Source of the DNA: a virus
DNA length: 55,135 bases
IMG/VR virus record: IMGVR_UViG_3300044911_001343
Coordinates: 1-55,135 of that record
Strand: one strand, 5' to 3'
Of this stretch, positions 1,482 to 19,396 are shown in pieces (position 1 is the stretch's first letter; each line of letters opens with the position of its first letter). The notes under the pieces were generated by a model. That model ran no database searches. It saw nothing but the letters and a program-made list of their open reading frames with translations, and had not been told where the DNA came from. The position numbers and the translations under genes are program-made.

Positions 1482-1832
1482 CTACTTAGGTCGGGGTCGC
1501 TGCCATCTCGATGTGACCACCCATCCATCCTTGATCAGGTTGTTCCAGATCACCCTTGCCTCGTACTTGTCCGTCCATCGTCTATCGAAGGAAATGTTGT
1601 GCATCGAATCCCTCATGCCTGTCACATTGATGGAATCAGTGGAATCAGGCATGCCCTTCTCAGGGTAGAAGTCCATCCAGACGATGCCCTCTCCATCCTT
1701 GACCCACTCGAAGCGGATCCACCCCATCCGCCCATGGTGTACGGTCGCTGCCGAGTCCATCCTCTCCATGTCATAGGGGACATAATGCCACGGAACCAAC
1801 TCGTCAACGACGGCAACCTGCTCAACCATCAT
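1482..1832 (-). CDS. small protein of the tandem 'VWM...IWN-L-GW' family (copy 1)
   Basis: 116 aa from the ATGATG at 1832, which overlaps the previous stop as GGATGATG. A GGAGG is placed 5-6 nt upstream, so the longer upstream frame is not needed. The protein shares a pattern with its neighbours at 1829, 2167, 2418, 3220 and 5446: a strand like G-W-I-R-F-E-W-V, then V-W-M plus aromatic residues, and a C-terminal helix A-R-x-I-W-N-x-L-x-x-x-G-W. No known domain is recognised and the function is unknown. It is the last gene before an intrinsic terminator. Confidence 0.75.
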   Translation of the reverse strand: MMVEQVAVVDELVPWHYVPYDMERMDSAATVHHGRMGWIRFEWVKDGEGIVWMDFYPEKGMPDSTDSINVTGMRDSMHNISFDRRWTDKYEARVIWNNLIKDGWVVTSRWQRPRPK

Positions 1833-2170
1833 CCAAGCCTCCTCATCCTCGTCCGTTCCCATCCATTCGATTGCAGTTCTTTCCAGATTGCCCTTCCCTC
1901 GTCCCTTGTCACCCACAGTCTGTGCCTACAGATGGAATACTTGTGATGGGAGGCAAGTTCATCTTGCGCTGGAGTCTCCACATGGATCTCCGTGTGGTTG
2001 GATCCCGAATGCGAGATGTAGGACAACCAGACGGTTTCCTCCGTTTCCACCCACTCGAAGCGGATCCATCCCTCCCTGTGGCTCATCGTGACCGTCCTGT
2101 CCACCCTTGTCGCTTCATACGGCTTCCAGGCAATCGCGGAAGGGGCATTCGTGCCATTGGGCATCGTCAT
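1829..2170 (-). CDS. small protein of the tandem 'VWM...IWN-L-GW' family (copy 2)
   Basis: 113 aa from the ATG at 2170, chosen because it overlaps the preceding stop as ATGA, as elsewhere in this array. The core E-G-W-I-R-F-E-W-V is almost identical to copy 1, and the C-terminal helix reads G-R-A-I-W-K-E-L-Q-S-N-G-W. The similarity to copy 1 suggests a fairly recent duplication. No function is known. An ATG six nucleotides further in is also possible. Confidence 0.7.
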   Translation of the reverse strand: MTMPNGTNAPSAIAWKPYEATRVDRTVTMSHREGWIRFEWVETEETVWLSYISHSGSNHTEIHVETPAQDELASHHKYSICRHRLWVTRDEGRAIWKELQSNGWERTRMRRLG

Positions 2171-2421
2171 GTGGTGCATTCCCTTCTCCATCCCATCCCT
2201 ACCAGTAGATGCCATATCTTCCTTGCCGTCCCGATCCACGCCCAGACCGAGCCTTCCGTGCGGATGTGGTGGGCTTTGCCATTGACCATGATGATCACGC
2301 AAGGGGTGTCTGCTTGCGCAGGGAAATGCCGCATCCACACCTTGCCCTTGCCCGTGCTGTGGAAGACGATCTTCCCGCTGCCCTCATGGATCAGGGTTGC
2401 CCGCACTTCGGTCTCGTTCAC
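2167..2421 (-). CDS. small protein of the tandem 'VWM...IWN-L-GW' family (copy 3, GTG start)
   Basis: 84 aa from a GTG at 2421 that overlaps the preceding stop as GTGA, with GGGAGG directly upstream; an in-frame ATG at 2439 is the alternative. The pattern is G-K-I-V-F-H near the N-terminus, V-W-M-R-H-F-P in the middle and A-R-K-I-W-H-L-L-V-G-M-G-W-R-R-E at the C-terminus. Unknown function; probably translationally coupled to its neighbours. Confidence 0.65.
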   Translation of the reverse strand: MNETEVRATLIHEGSGKIVFHSTGKGKVWMRHFPAQADTPCVIIMVNGKAHHIRTEGSVWAWIGTARKIWHLLVGMGWRRECTT

Positions 2422-4929: not shown

Positions 4930-5444
4930 GCGTTCTCCTTGGTCTCGCTTGCGATCTTGTCGTACTTCTCGTCCCGCTTCCTCTCGCATTCCACGCATTC
5001 ACACCGCAGCCACGCGGCTGGTTCGATCCTACCTTTGGCTCCGCAGTCCGCGCAGATGCGGCTGCTCATGGCTTCTGCCATCGTGATTGCCCCGTGGATT
5101 GCCTCTATCGTGTGCTGCAAGTCCTTGAGGAGGGCAGGATCGAACGCACGATCATGGAAATCGTCGGGAAGATCGAAATGCACATAGAAGCGCAGAGTCC
5201 CGTACTTCTCCTTGACCTGCTCGGCACGGACACCGAACTTGAGGTCGGGGTTCTTGTCGCTCCACCGCCACTTGAGGTTCTTCACCATGTTGTCCATCGT
5301 GGAACACAGGATGTCGATCAGGTCGTGCCATCCGTCCCCGCATTCAAGACCCCATGCCATGCATGTCTTTCTGGGATTGCCGCCGATCTCTGAGAAGATC
5401 ATCGGATGCTTCTCTACGAGTTTCTTCTGAAGTTCGCTGTTCAT
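4923..5444 (-). CDS. conserved phage protein with C-terminal zinc-ribbon-like cysteines
   Basis: 173 aa from the ATG at 5444 with AGGAG upstream. The N-terminal two thirds match a protein type seen in many phages (E-C-G-D-G-W-H-D-L-I-D-I-L-C, then Q-V-K-E-K-Y-G-T-L-R-F-Y). The C-terminal part has C-A-D-C-G and C-E-C-V-E-C, a probable zinc site. The biochemical role of the family is not known to me. It forms part of the coupled run down to 1482. Confidence 0.75.
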   Translation of the reverse strand: MNSELQKKLVEKHPMIFSEIGGNPRKTCMAWGLECGDGWHDLIDILCSTMDNMVKNLKWRWSDKNPDLKFGVRAEQVKEKYGTLRFYVHFDLPDDFHDRAFDPALLKDLQHTIEAIHGAITMAEAMSSRICADCGAKGRIEPAAWLRCECVECERKRDEKYDKIASETKENAC

Positions 5445-5445
5445 C

Positions 5446-5721
5446 TCATGCTCCTTGGACGATCTTCGTCCACTTGTCTTCCTGTTCCCTGTCGCGAACC
5501 CAGTATCCATTTTCAGTCAGTTGGTTCCAGCAGTCGCGCAGCCTTTCGGCGGAATACGCTGTTCCTACCGTGTAGCCGTGGTCTCCCACAGAGAACTCAC
5601 CGATGCAGATGGTTCCATTTATCGAATCCCTCTGCGACACACATCCACATGTTTTCTCCATGACGAAGACCATGATGCGAGGATTGTGGATCTTGGATCT
5701 CAACACATAGACCGATGCCAT
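5446..5721 (-). CDS. small protein related to the 'IWN-L-GW' family (diverged copy)
   Basis: 91 aa, with GGAGG 8 nt before the ATG at 5721. The C-terminal helix reads A-E-R-L-R-D-C-W-N-Q-L-T-E-N-G-Y-W-V, aligning with the A-R-x-I-W-N-x-L-x-x-x-G-W ending of the five copies at 1482-3501. The N-terminal half contains several Cys (C-G-C-V) not shared with them. Function unknown. Confidence 0.65.
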   Translation of the reverse strand: MASVYVLRSKIHNPRIMVFVMEKTCGCVSQRDSINGTICIGEFSVGDHGYTVGTAYSAERLRDCWNQLTENGYWVRDREQEDKWTKIVQGA

Positions 5722-5737
5722 TTCTCATGCCTCCCAT

Positions 5738-5950
5738 TCAGCGACCACGCGCATACTCGCGGTCGAGCCTACGGATGTTCTCAGAGCCACGCGCCACGAA
5801 CAGTTCCCCTGCGGTCTTGTGCGAGTAGATGATCCTGCACCTGACCATCGGCGTGTGCTTGTCGGCGCACTTGACGCAGTACTCCGCATCGGGGACTGCC
5901 TCAAGACGGATGGCGGGAATCTCACACTTGCAGTCGTTGCACTTAGGCAT
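5738..5950 (-). CDS. TraR/DksA-type zinc-finger protein
   Basis: 70 aa from the ATG at 5950 (GAGAGG 7 nt upstream; an ATG at 5956 is also in frame). Residues 4-28 show C-x-x-C ... I-P-x-x-R-L-x-A-V-P ... C-x-x-C, the C4 zinc finger of the TraR/DksA family. These proteins bind RNA polymerase in the secondary channel. The coiled-coil tip with acidic residues seen in full DksA is absent, so this is a short TraR-like form. A role in redirecting host transcription is inferred from the family only. Confidence 0.8.
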   Translation of the reverse strand: MPKCNDCKCEIPAIRLEAVPDAEYCVKCADKHTPMVRCRIIYSHKTAGELFVARGSENIRRLDREYARGR

Positions 5951-11916: not shown

Positions 11917-12152
11917 CGCTTGCTCTCCTTGTTTCGATCCTTGAGGTCAAAGTAGACATCAAGAGCATACATCAGTTCCTCTCCATTGTCCCCGTCACCT
12001 CCCGCCTTCCAGTCGAAGAAGTCGTACTTCTCGTCTGCCTTTCGGAGGAAGGCGAAAATCTTCTCGGACTCTGGGTGATGAGGGATGCCCTGCTCCCACC
12101 TCTTTTCCGTGTCCGTCTCCACATGGTCGCTATTGCTGTGGTTGTCCTTCAC
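11913..12152 (-). CDS. hypothetical protein (GTG start)
   Basis: 79 aa from a GTG at 12152 that overlaps the rtcB stop as GTGA, with AAGGAGAG just upstream; longer ATG starts lie inside rtcB and are not needed. Acidic, with P-E-S-E-K-I-F-A-F-L-R-K-A-D-E-K and E-E-L-M-Y-A-L-D-V-Y-F-D-L helices. No family recognised. Confidence 0.65.
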   Translation of the reverse strand: MKDNHSNSDHVETDTEKRWEQGIPHHPESEKIFAFLRKADEKYDFFDWKAGGDGDNGEELMYALDVYFDLKDRNKESKR

Positions 12153-13396
12153 TTGCTCTCCTTCTTCTTCTGCCAAGGCTTCTCCATCTCTCCCGCCATG
12201 ATGCACCCGTAGGGCATGATCTCGTCCACGATGGTCGCGAGGTTGAAGTGTCGGATCTGATCCTTCACCTTCTCCGCGTCCTTGTAGGCACTAGGAAGTT
12301 CGCTCACATCGATCTTGCCCGAGTAGAAGCGGACATCAAGCCCCGCCGTCTCCTCAGCGAACACCTCCTCGACCGTCTTGCCGACCAACTTCGTCCGCTT
12401 GTGTTCCGTGCGGCTGAAGTTCCGACCCGCGCCGTGGGGAGCGAAGCCGATGCCGTTCGTGAGTCGGGCATCGGGAACCGCCTTGGCGATCAGGATCGGC
12501 TGTCCCATGTTGAGGGGGATCAGGCGCAGACCATCAATCGAGTCGGGGACGAACTTGTTGCACATCGGGGTTGCGCCCTTTGCATGATAGAAGCGGTCAC
12601 CGTCCCTGAACACGAAGTTGTGTTCGTTCCAAAACCGCGAGACGCGGTCTGCCCACGACACCTGCTCGACCACATCGTGGATGACGATGTGGTTGTACTT
12701 CGTCCAACAGCGGACGATCTGGAGGGCTTCCCAGTAGTCGTGTCCTTCCTGCGTGTCCGCAGGGATCCATGCGTTCTTGGGATTGACCTTCGGATCGATC
12801 TTCTTCAGGAAGGATTCCGCCACCCTAACGCCTTCCTTGTAGAGATTCGCTCCGAACCCACGGCTTCCGTGGTGGGTGACGAGCATCGTGCGACCCGTGT
12901 TCTTGCTGCGACCGACGAACAGGAAGTGGTTGCCGTCCCCCTGCGTCCCGAGGTGCGACTGAGCGCAGAAGAGGCTCTTCTGGTTGTTGAGGAACGGATT
13001 GGCTTCGATACGAGCCTTCAGGTTTTCGGGAAGACCGATCTCGAAGTCGGGCGACCGTCCGCCGATCCCGAAGTGCGTGACCGCCTGTGCGAGATCAAGA
13101 ACCATCTTGGGATCGGCATAGCCGAGATCCGTAGCCATCACGGAACAACAGACATCCGCGCTGTGCATTCGGGGGTGGATCGCATTCCAGGTGACGACCA
13201 CGCCTCCCACGGGGATCTCGTCCTTGCCCACGGGACAGGCATCGGGCATGATCGCCGCCTCAAGCACGGTCGGCGTGTCGAGGACGCTGTTCATCGCAGC
13301 CATGACGCTGTCGAGGTTGCGGATCTCATGCTCGTCTTCCGCGAGGATGTTCTTGTGGAAGGTATGGAACGGGAGGTTGGGGTTCAGTTCATTCAT
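12149..13396 (-). CDS. rtcB: RNA-splicing ligase RtcB
   Basis: 415 aa from the ATG at 13396. RtcB joins RNA 2',3'-cyclic phosphate (or 3'-phosphate) ends to 5'-OH ends using GTP and Mn2+. Diagnostic motifs are present: M-P-D-A-C-P-V-G-K (50-58), D-V-C-C (81-84, metal Cys), G-T-Q-G-D-G-N-H-F (150-158), H-H-G-S-R-G (175-180) and H-G-A-G-R (321-325), where H321 is the expected guanylylated His. Length is normal for the family. In a phage with many tRNAs it fits repair of tRNAs cut by host anticodon nucleases, an inference from context. It could also act on ends from tRNA or tmRNA processing. Confidence 0.95.
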   Translation of the reverse strand: MNELNPNLPFHTFHKNILAEDEHEIRNLDSVMAAMNSVLDTPTVLEAAIMPDACPVGKDEIPVGGVVVTWNAIHPRMHSADVCCSVMATDLGYADPKMVLDLAQAVTHFGIGGRSPDFEIGLPENLKARIEANPFLNNQKSLFCAQSHLGTQGDGNHFLFVGRSKNTGRTMLVTHHGSRGFGANLYKEGVRVAESFLKKIDPKVNPKNAWIPADTQEGHDYWEALQIVRCWTKYNHIVIHDVVEQVSWADRVSRFWNEHNFVFRDGDRFYHAKGATPMCNKFVPDSIDGLRLIPLNMGQPILIAKAVPDARLTNGIGFAPHGAGRNFSRTEHKRTKLVGKTVEEVFAEETAGLDVRFYSGKIDVSELPSAYKDAEKVKDQIRHFNLATIVDEIMPYGCIMAGEMEKPWQKKKESK

Positions 13397-13857
13397 CGCT
13401 TGGTCTTCCTCTTGGTCTTCTTGGGGCAGTCGCACAGTCGTTCCAGTCGGTTGAACTCCTTGGTTCCCTTCCACTCGCGGATGCGGTAGTCTCCCGTGCG
13501 GTCGATCTCCTCAAGGATCGGAAGATGCCACGCCCTCATCATGTCCCTGAGGTTTTGTCGGCTCTCCTGCTCTGCCTTGTGCAAGGGACGCTGAAACTCG
13601 TCCTTGCCTTCGTAGTCGGAATAGTTCACCCGTACCGTTGTGTCGGGATATTCCACGATGCCATTGGGCTTTCCCTTCGAGTCATAGCAGACCTTGCAGA
13701 TCACGAAACGGACACCACCTGGAATCCATCGTTGATTCTCATCGAAAATCTCCTGGGTAGGCTTCTCGTACTTTCGTGCGACCACCCGCCATTCGGAAAG
13801 CGGCTGGTTCACAAGACGGACGCTGCTCTTGTTGCTCTTCTTCGTGGTCTTCTTCAT
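13393..13857 (-). CDS. hypothetical protein
   Basis: 154 aa with AAGGAG upstream of the ATG at 13857. Basic N- and C-terminal tails (K-K-T-T-K-K; P-K-K-T-K-R) flank a core with W-I-P-G-G-V-R-F-V-I-C-K-V-C and a long helix. The C-V-C-like and C-D-C cysteines might bind metal. It sits directly upstream of rtcB (ATGA overlap) and should be co-translated with it. Not recognised. Confidence 0.7.
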   Translation of the reverse strand: MKKTTKKSNKSSVRLVNQPLSEWRVVARKYEKPTQEIFDENQRWIPGGVRFVICKVCYDSKGKPNGIVEYPDTTVRVNYSDYEGKDEFQRPLHKAEQESRQNLRDMMRAWHLPILEEIDRTGDYRIREWKGTKEFNRLERLCDCPKKTKRKTKR

Positions 13858-19115: not shown

Positions 19116-19151
19116 CCGAAAAGCACAAAGCCTCCTTTCGGAGACCCTGTG
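19116..19151 (-). terminator. intrinsic terminator of the tmRNA gene
   Basis: Minus strand: a 13-bp stem (GCACAGGGTCTCC / GGAGGCTTTGTGC, with G-U pairs), GAAA loop, then TTTTC. A strong Rho-independent terminator placed between the tmRNA and the downstream protein genes. Confidence 0.9.
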
Positions 19152-19396
19152 CCGATGATCCGTTCAGTCGCGGGTGGATCGGACCCCACTGCTTCAAGCA
19201 GCCATCCGCATGTTCGCGGCGTTTATGGTTGCCGACATTGGGATTTTACGAGGGTTGTCAGCGACCTCTCGGACATCTCCCTGTTGCGAACATCTAGCCG
19301 TCGATTCCAGTTCGACCCCGTAGGTTTGAATGGAGTCGGGGGGTATCGAACCCCCGTGTGACCAGGTAGTATGCAAAGATCAACGATGTCGTTTGC
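19116..19396 (-). ncRNA. ssrA: tmRNA, circularly permuted (two-piece type)
   Basis: tmRNA rescues stalled ribosomes and adds a degradation tag. On the minus strand the 3' half of the tRNA-like domain comes first: T-arm GGGGG-TTCGATA-CCCCC (19354-19338), acceptor strand CGACTCC (19337-19331) and discriminator A (19330). An 11-nt spacer follows. Then comes the 5' half: GGGGTCG (19318-19312) and ACTGGAATCGACGG, close to the tmRNA 5' consensus. The two acceptor strands pair over 7 bp with a G3-U70 wobble, the alanine identity element. Downstream a 12-codon tag frame A-T-I-N-A-A-N-M-R-M-A-A-stop lies at 19231-19193. A strong terminator closes the gene. Having the acceptor half upstream of the 5' half is the permuted order known from Alphaproteobacteria and some cyanobacteria. 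The exact 5' end and processing sites are not visible. Confidence 0.85.

Follow-up and report, generated by a model that had tools for sequence, protein, structure and literature searches.

Evidence for a circularly permuted, probably functional tmRNA gene encoded by a T4-like phage

The stretch of DNA analysed here (the window) is the 55,135-nucleotide IMG/VR record IMGVR_UViG_3300044911_001343, a 55-kb viral sequence with 15 tRNA genes and T4-type baseplate genes. For its baseplate wedge protein the best matches show 32-34% identity, among them T4-like phages of SAR11, OM43 and cyanobacteria. On the minus strand, at about 19415-19119, the window carries a circularly permuted gene for tmRNA, the RNA that releases stuck ribosomes and tags incomplete proteins. 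The gene is flanked upstream by a DUF5856 protein gene (PF19174; 19397-19756) and downstream by a gene for an unknown 152-aa phage protein (18605-19063), and all three lie on the minus strand.

The 3′ half of the RNA is encoded upstream of the 5′ half, as seen in the sequence itself and in the ARAGORN prediction, giving the order acceptor/T-arm piece, 11-nt spacer and coding piece. The acceptor piece (19390-19331, with an approximate 5′ end) is delimited by the Rfam tmRNA_permuted model (RF04321), ARAGORN and an alignment of 40 relatives. It comprises the strand GACATC of an outer inter-piece helix (19390-19385), a T arm (19355-19339) with a GGGGG/CCCCC stem and a TTCGATA loop, and the acceptor strand CGACTCC (19338-19332), followed by the discriminator A19331; CCA is not encoded. 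The intervening segment TTCAAACCTAC (19330-19320), which RNase P together with 3′ processing would presumably excise, measures 6-173 nt at the homologous position in relatives. The coding piece (19319-19194), supported by RF04321, ARAGORN and covariation, begins at G19319 with the 5′ half GGGGTCGAACTGGAATCGACGG and consists of the acceptor strand GGGGTCG (19319-19313), a D-like loop ACTGGAATCGACGG and an mRNA-like domain running to the stop codon. The two acceptor strands form 7 bp including G3-U70. A T arm with a TTCGA loop and a 7-bp acceptor stem bearing this alanine identity pair, general hallmarks of tmRNA, are present in the window and in 40/40 relatives. Within the coding piece GATGTC (19277-19272) supplies the other strand of the outer helix, and the minimum-energy fold indeed pairs it with GACATC of the acceptor piece.

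The mRNA-like domain contains a tag frame, GCC GCG AAC ATG CGG ATG GCT GCT TGA (19220-19194), which ARAGORN translates as AANMRMAA* and which has equivalents in relatives. Its resume codon GCC follows CCATAAAC, and its stop codon sits within a hairpin, CTGC-TTGAA-GCAG (19201-19189), as is general for tmRNA; this hairpin shows compensatory change and is paired in 40/40 relatives. Two further hairpins frame the gene. Upstream, GCTCAC-CCTCAACAA-GTGAGC (19415-19395) spans the stop codon of the DUF5856 gene and, judged from sequence and minimum-energy fold, is a probable 5′ leader of the precursor. Downstream, the fold gives a GC-rich hairpin followed by TTTT (19151-19119), a probable terminator or precursor 3′ end. 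No promoter-like site was found at the gene.

An initial annotation of this DNA had described a minus-strand permuted tmRNA with 11 nt between its halves, and this description is confirmed by the sequence, RF04321, ARAGORN and the relatives. Its 7-bp pairing with G3-U70, its 5′ half and its tag frame are likewise present as claimed. The extent that it gave, 19116-19396, holds the core of an element that is slightly longer and, with the upstream hairpin included, extends to about 19415. The strong terminator that it postulated is borne out as to the strength of the 19151-19123 hairpin, but only four T follow and the terminator scan made no call.

The window scored 57.1 bits against RF04321 (cut-off 47), with an E value of 1.6e-8 when the whole window was compared with all Rfam families and 3.7e-12 for the record alone. 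ARAGORN independently placed a permuted tmRNA with the tag AANMRMAA* at 19421-19103 (minus strand). In single-strand folding the RNA surpassed 100/100 shuffled sequences (z −3.7). The identical gene and arrangement recur in two more IMG/VR contigs (L260 and L261; ..44645_001430 and ..44621_001247), which makes an assembly chimera unlikely. Chance similarity or an assembly artefact thus has next to no probability: we found nothing in its favour, the E value against all Rfam families and the shared layout of three contigs argue against it, and the many relatives with the same layout refute it.

The first homologues were RF04321 matches in records that encode relatives of the neighbouring proteins. 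A search with the acceptor-piece pattern GTTGATN{18,40}GGGGTTCGANNCCCCNCGRCTCCA then retrieved 85 viral stretches, and both halves were recognisable in 62 distinct viral loci found by pattern. Across 84,980 species genomes of bacteria and archaea the same pattern had only two matches, both incidental: the sequence displayed after each contained no coding piece. A stricter version had none in these genomes. All 12 relatives scored exceeded the RF04321 cut-off (54.5-87.5 bits), and at least 40 distinct IMG/VR relatives share the permuted layout. Searches of other kinds yielded little: close relatives sought via the 663-aa and 388-aa proteins were the same virus only, and BLAST against 50,697 phage records returned only short matches, mostly to the T arm.

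Alignment of 40 non-redundant members, with the spacer removed, showed pairing in 40/40 for both stems (acceptor and T), for the outer helix between the pieces and for the hairpin at the stop codon; several helix positions accommodate two or three kinds of base pair. In each helix the observed pairing exceeded 1000/1000 shuffles, counts that lend support without amounting to a formal test because shuffling ignores the relatedness of the sequences. Relative to the commonest type, the window itself carries compensatory changes (A-U for G-C and C-G for U-A), while two proximal inter-piece pairs are lost in its sequence. G3-U70 is kept in 40/40 members. Together with the compensatory changes, this retention in 40 relatives indicates an RNA that is maintained by evolution and not a product of chance.

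These data also bear on the idea of a host gene that was passively captured, or is decaying, without function. The modest covariance score of the window and the accumulation of tRNA genes in T4-like phages could be read that way. Compensatory changes across many divergent phages, an invariant G3-U70 and a conserved tag speak against it, as does the lack of any similar bacterial gene in the 84,980 genomes with the patterns tested. Given the covariation in particular, we regard capture without function as very unlikely.

Eight-codon tags were read in 59 loci and mostly follow A-x-x-[ML]-[AR]-M-A-A, for example ANQLAMAA, AAPMRMAA and ANELAMAA in relatives beside AANMRMAA in the window. The tag length derives from a script that counted back eight codons from the stop; it is supported by the resume codon (GCN or GGC), which is conserved behind an A-rich stretch upstream. 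A conserved helix inside the tag was considered and dropped, as it can be formed in each sequence but in differing registers, with 26% pairing in the register tested. In a group of loci (L298, L300-L307, L309-L311 and L313-L315) the T loop reads TGCGAAT or TGCAAAT, which lacks U55, instead of TTCGAAT.

The maintained tag is informative with regard to a second alternative, in which the phage RNA, as a decoy, would bind SmpB or ribosomes of the host and inhibit trans-translation there rather than complete it, as proposed for the RNA of mycobacteriophage DS6A. Inhibition of host tmRNA by tmRNA-like molecules of phages has been described, and DS6A, which like the window phage makes use of a tmRNA-related RNA, encodes a tRNA-like-domain-only form that has no tag frame and is inhibitory when expressed in E. 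coli. Moreover, two of the relatives (L309 and L313) keep the acceptor piece with a coding piece that is seemingly cut down and devoid of a tag. The window and nearly all relatives, however, retain an open 8-codon tag, a resume codon and the stop-codon hairpin under apparent constraint, and we therefore consider the decoy role unlikely, though the least improbable of the alternatives.

Gene order, tRNA-like domain, conserved G3-U70, inter-piece pairing and short tags are all directly visible. On this basis the window gene very probably encodes a functional, circularly permuted tmRNA of a T4-like phage, and its RNA would be processed into two pieces. A single precursor would be transcribed from the gene, RNase P would cleave between C19320 and G19319, and 3′ processing would leave the acceptor piece ending at A19331, to which the host would add CCA. 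The host alanyl-tRNA synthetase would then charge the RNA by way of G3-U70, and host SmpB would bring it to ribosomes that have stalled on a broken mRNA, where the tag AANMRMAA would be appended and the product marked for proteolysis. Use of the host protein is presumed because a search for SmpB genes was negative in 14 tmRNA-bearing viral records (the window and 13 related ones) and gave the expected matches in control genomes. With its own copy, encoded beside 15 tRNA genes, the phage could probably sustain ribosome rescue during the destruction of the host's RNA and DNA.

The window also encodes an RtcB-family RNA ligase (12149-13474, minus strand; PF01139, 111.7 bits, with only the C-terminal part matched), possibly serving tRNA repair. 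Its presence would fit a scheme in which the pieces are ligated back together, for instance by this RtcB-like enzyme, so that the mature RNA is a single molecule rather than two-piece. Permuted bacterial tmRNAs are described as acting in two pieces, however, tRNA repair is the more plausible use of RtcB, and joining the mature ends would be expected to abolish the free 3′ end that charging requires. Rejoining is accordingly extremely improbable compared with a two-piece mature tmRNA.

The suggestion in the initial annotation that a permuted tmRNA was undescribed in T4-like phages is incorrect: Melnitz and SAR11 myophages have such genes (PMC9004378). For Melnitz, a T4-like phage, the two-piece tmRNA was described in 2022 by authors who counted 53 two-piece structures in the genomes of phages, most of them from marine or aquatic settings (PMC9004378); a 2025 tmRNA database holds 79 bacteriophage sequences (PMC11915505). 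We re-found permuted tmRNAs in the T4-like phages Melnitz, HTVC008M and Mosig (Kyanoviridae), with which the window gene shares a T4-like phage genome, permuted order and an RF04321 score above cut-off. One-piece phage tmRNAs, as in Mycobacterium cluster C and Streptomyces BE phages and also in the records L050, L070 and L080, are phage-encoded too but have the standard gene order.

On the covariance models proposed as a check, the outcome was divided, the general permuted model being passed and the alpha, beta and cyano lineage models remaining below their cut-offs. Melnitz and HTVC008M reached 106.7 and 83.8 bits with alpha_tmRNA (RF01849, cut-off 50), whereas the window gave no match at the gathering score, which places its RNA outside the described alpha-type phage group. 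It further differs from these two in its 8-residue tag ending in MAA, and from Melnitz, which has a glutamine riboswitch close by, in that no riboswitch match was obtained near the gene with Rfam at a loose threshold. Cyano_tmRNA (RF01851, cut-off 70) likewise gave no window match at the gathering score, and the best relative attained 51 bits.

Of the lineage models, the one that fits the window and the majority of relatives best is that of the betaproteobacterial two-piece tmRNA (beta_tmRNA, RF01850), the top member of the clan at a loose threshold. The match of the window is partial (36.3 bits), and everything tested lies below the cut-off of 84, including the best relative at 64.8 bits over the full model; relative L280 aligns across the full length of the model. 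The beta consensus tag reads ANDEHFAMAA and many phage tags similarly end in AMAA, so that the phage tags, which are shorter, look like an abbreviated beta tag. Descent from a beta-type host gene, as judged from Rfam models and tags, is plausible, and the beta-like tags prompt the guess that the host is among the freshwater Burkholderiales. The window RNA apparently belongs to a separate, phage-only branch, to which the literature and records that we searched do not draw attention. Permuted tmRNAs of T4-like phages are thus not confined to the alpha type found in marine phages of SAR11 and OM43; a second, beta-like lineage is widespread in uncultured phages and has its own short tag. Phage-run ribosome rescue and tagging that differ from those of the host thereby become testable, and the 40-member alignment can be used for this purpose.

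Among 34 tmRNA-bearing records, a gene for the T4-type major capsid protein gp23 was present in 8, mostly the longer ones. Synteny of the tmRNA and DUF5856 genes was examined and rejected as a conserved trait: contigs that encode relatives of the neighbouring proteins mostly lack a tmRNA, and in two of them the tmRNA is of the one-piece kind.

Spacer length is bimodal in the relatives, at either 6-31 or 71-173 nt. L268 and L280 have near-identical tmRNA pieces (67/68 and 146/150 positions) and spacers of 122 versus 6 nt. An intervening segment of just 6 nt (CTTGAC or CTCGAC) is found in the permuted genes of L222, L242, L280, L283 and L284. Some relatives contain a tRNA-like RNA of about 112 nt, either inside the spacer or directly ahead of the gene, located at 2114-2224 (minus strand) in L268, 506-621 in L241, 1442-1554 in L216, 151-264 (minus strand) in L248, 91-204 in L206 and 1644-1786 (minus strand) in L161. 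In L216, L248 and L206 it precedes the tmRNA gene, and in L299 it precedes an apparent one-piece 5′ half. The insert folds as a cloverleaf with acceptor stem, D arm, long extra arm and T arm; a 5-nt GACAA or GAGAA loop replaces the normal anticodon loop, and the extra arm has the conserved elements TAAAACGGT...ACCGACAAAGC. It matched no Rfam family in the loci scanned and has no copy in the window. An identity with T4 stable RNAs C and D was discarded, as the T4 region holding them does not match the insert. The remaining long spacers (71-109 nt) consist of another sequence, also without a match.

Taken with its 11-nt spacer, the window RNA may be a short-spacer member of a phage-restricted permuted tmRNA lineage, with a long evolution in T4-like phages and set apart from the tmRNAs of known bacterial groups, in which the tRNA-like RNA was gained and lost within the intervening segment. 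We advance this history tentatively, at somewhat short of an even chance. If it is true, a single precursor would yield three phage RNAs in some members.

Rearranged relatives add to this variety. L315 has a tRNA-Pro gene inside the intervening segment, flanked by the tRNA-like insert and the coding piece. L309 and L313 retain the insert alongside the acceptor piece, with what is apparently a short, tagless coding stub, and are a possible tRNA-like-domain-only form. Finally, L050 (about 5426-5790) and likewise L052 encode a one-piece tmRNA with the tag ANTQYRLAA, whose 3′ end is followed only a few bases on by a second, decayed 5′ half (GAGAGTGGTGGAATCGACAGGTC), an arrangement that looks like the tandem-duplication intermediate expected midway through circular permutation.
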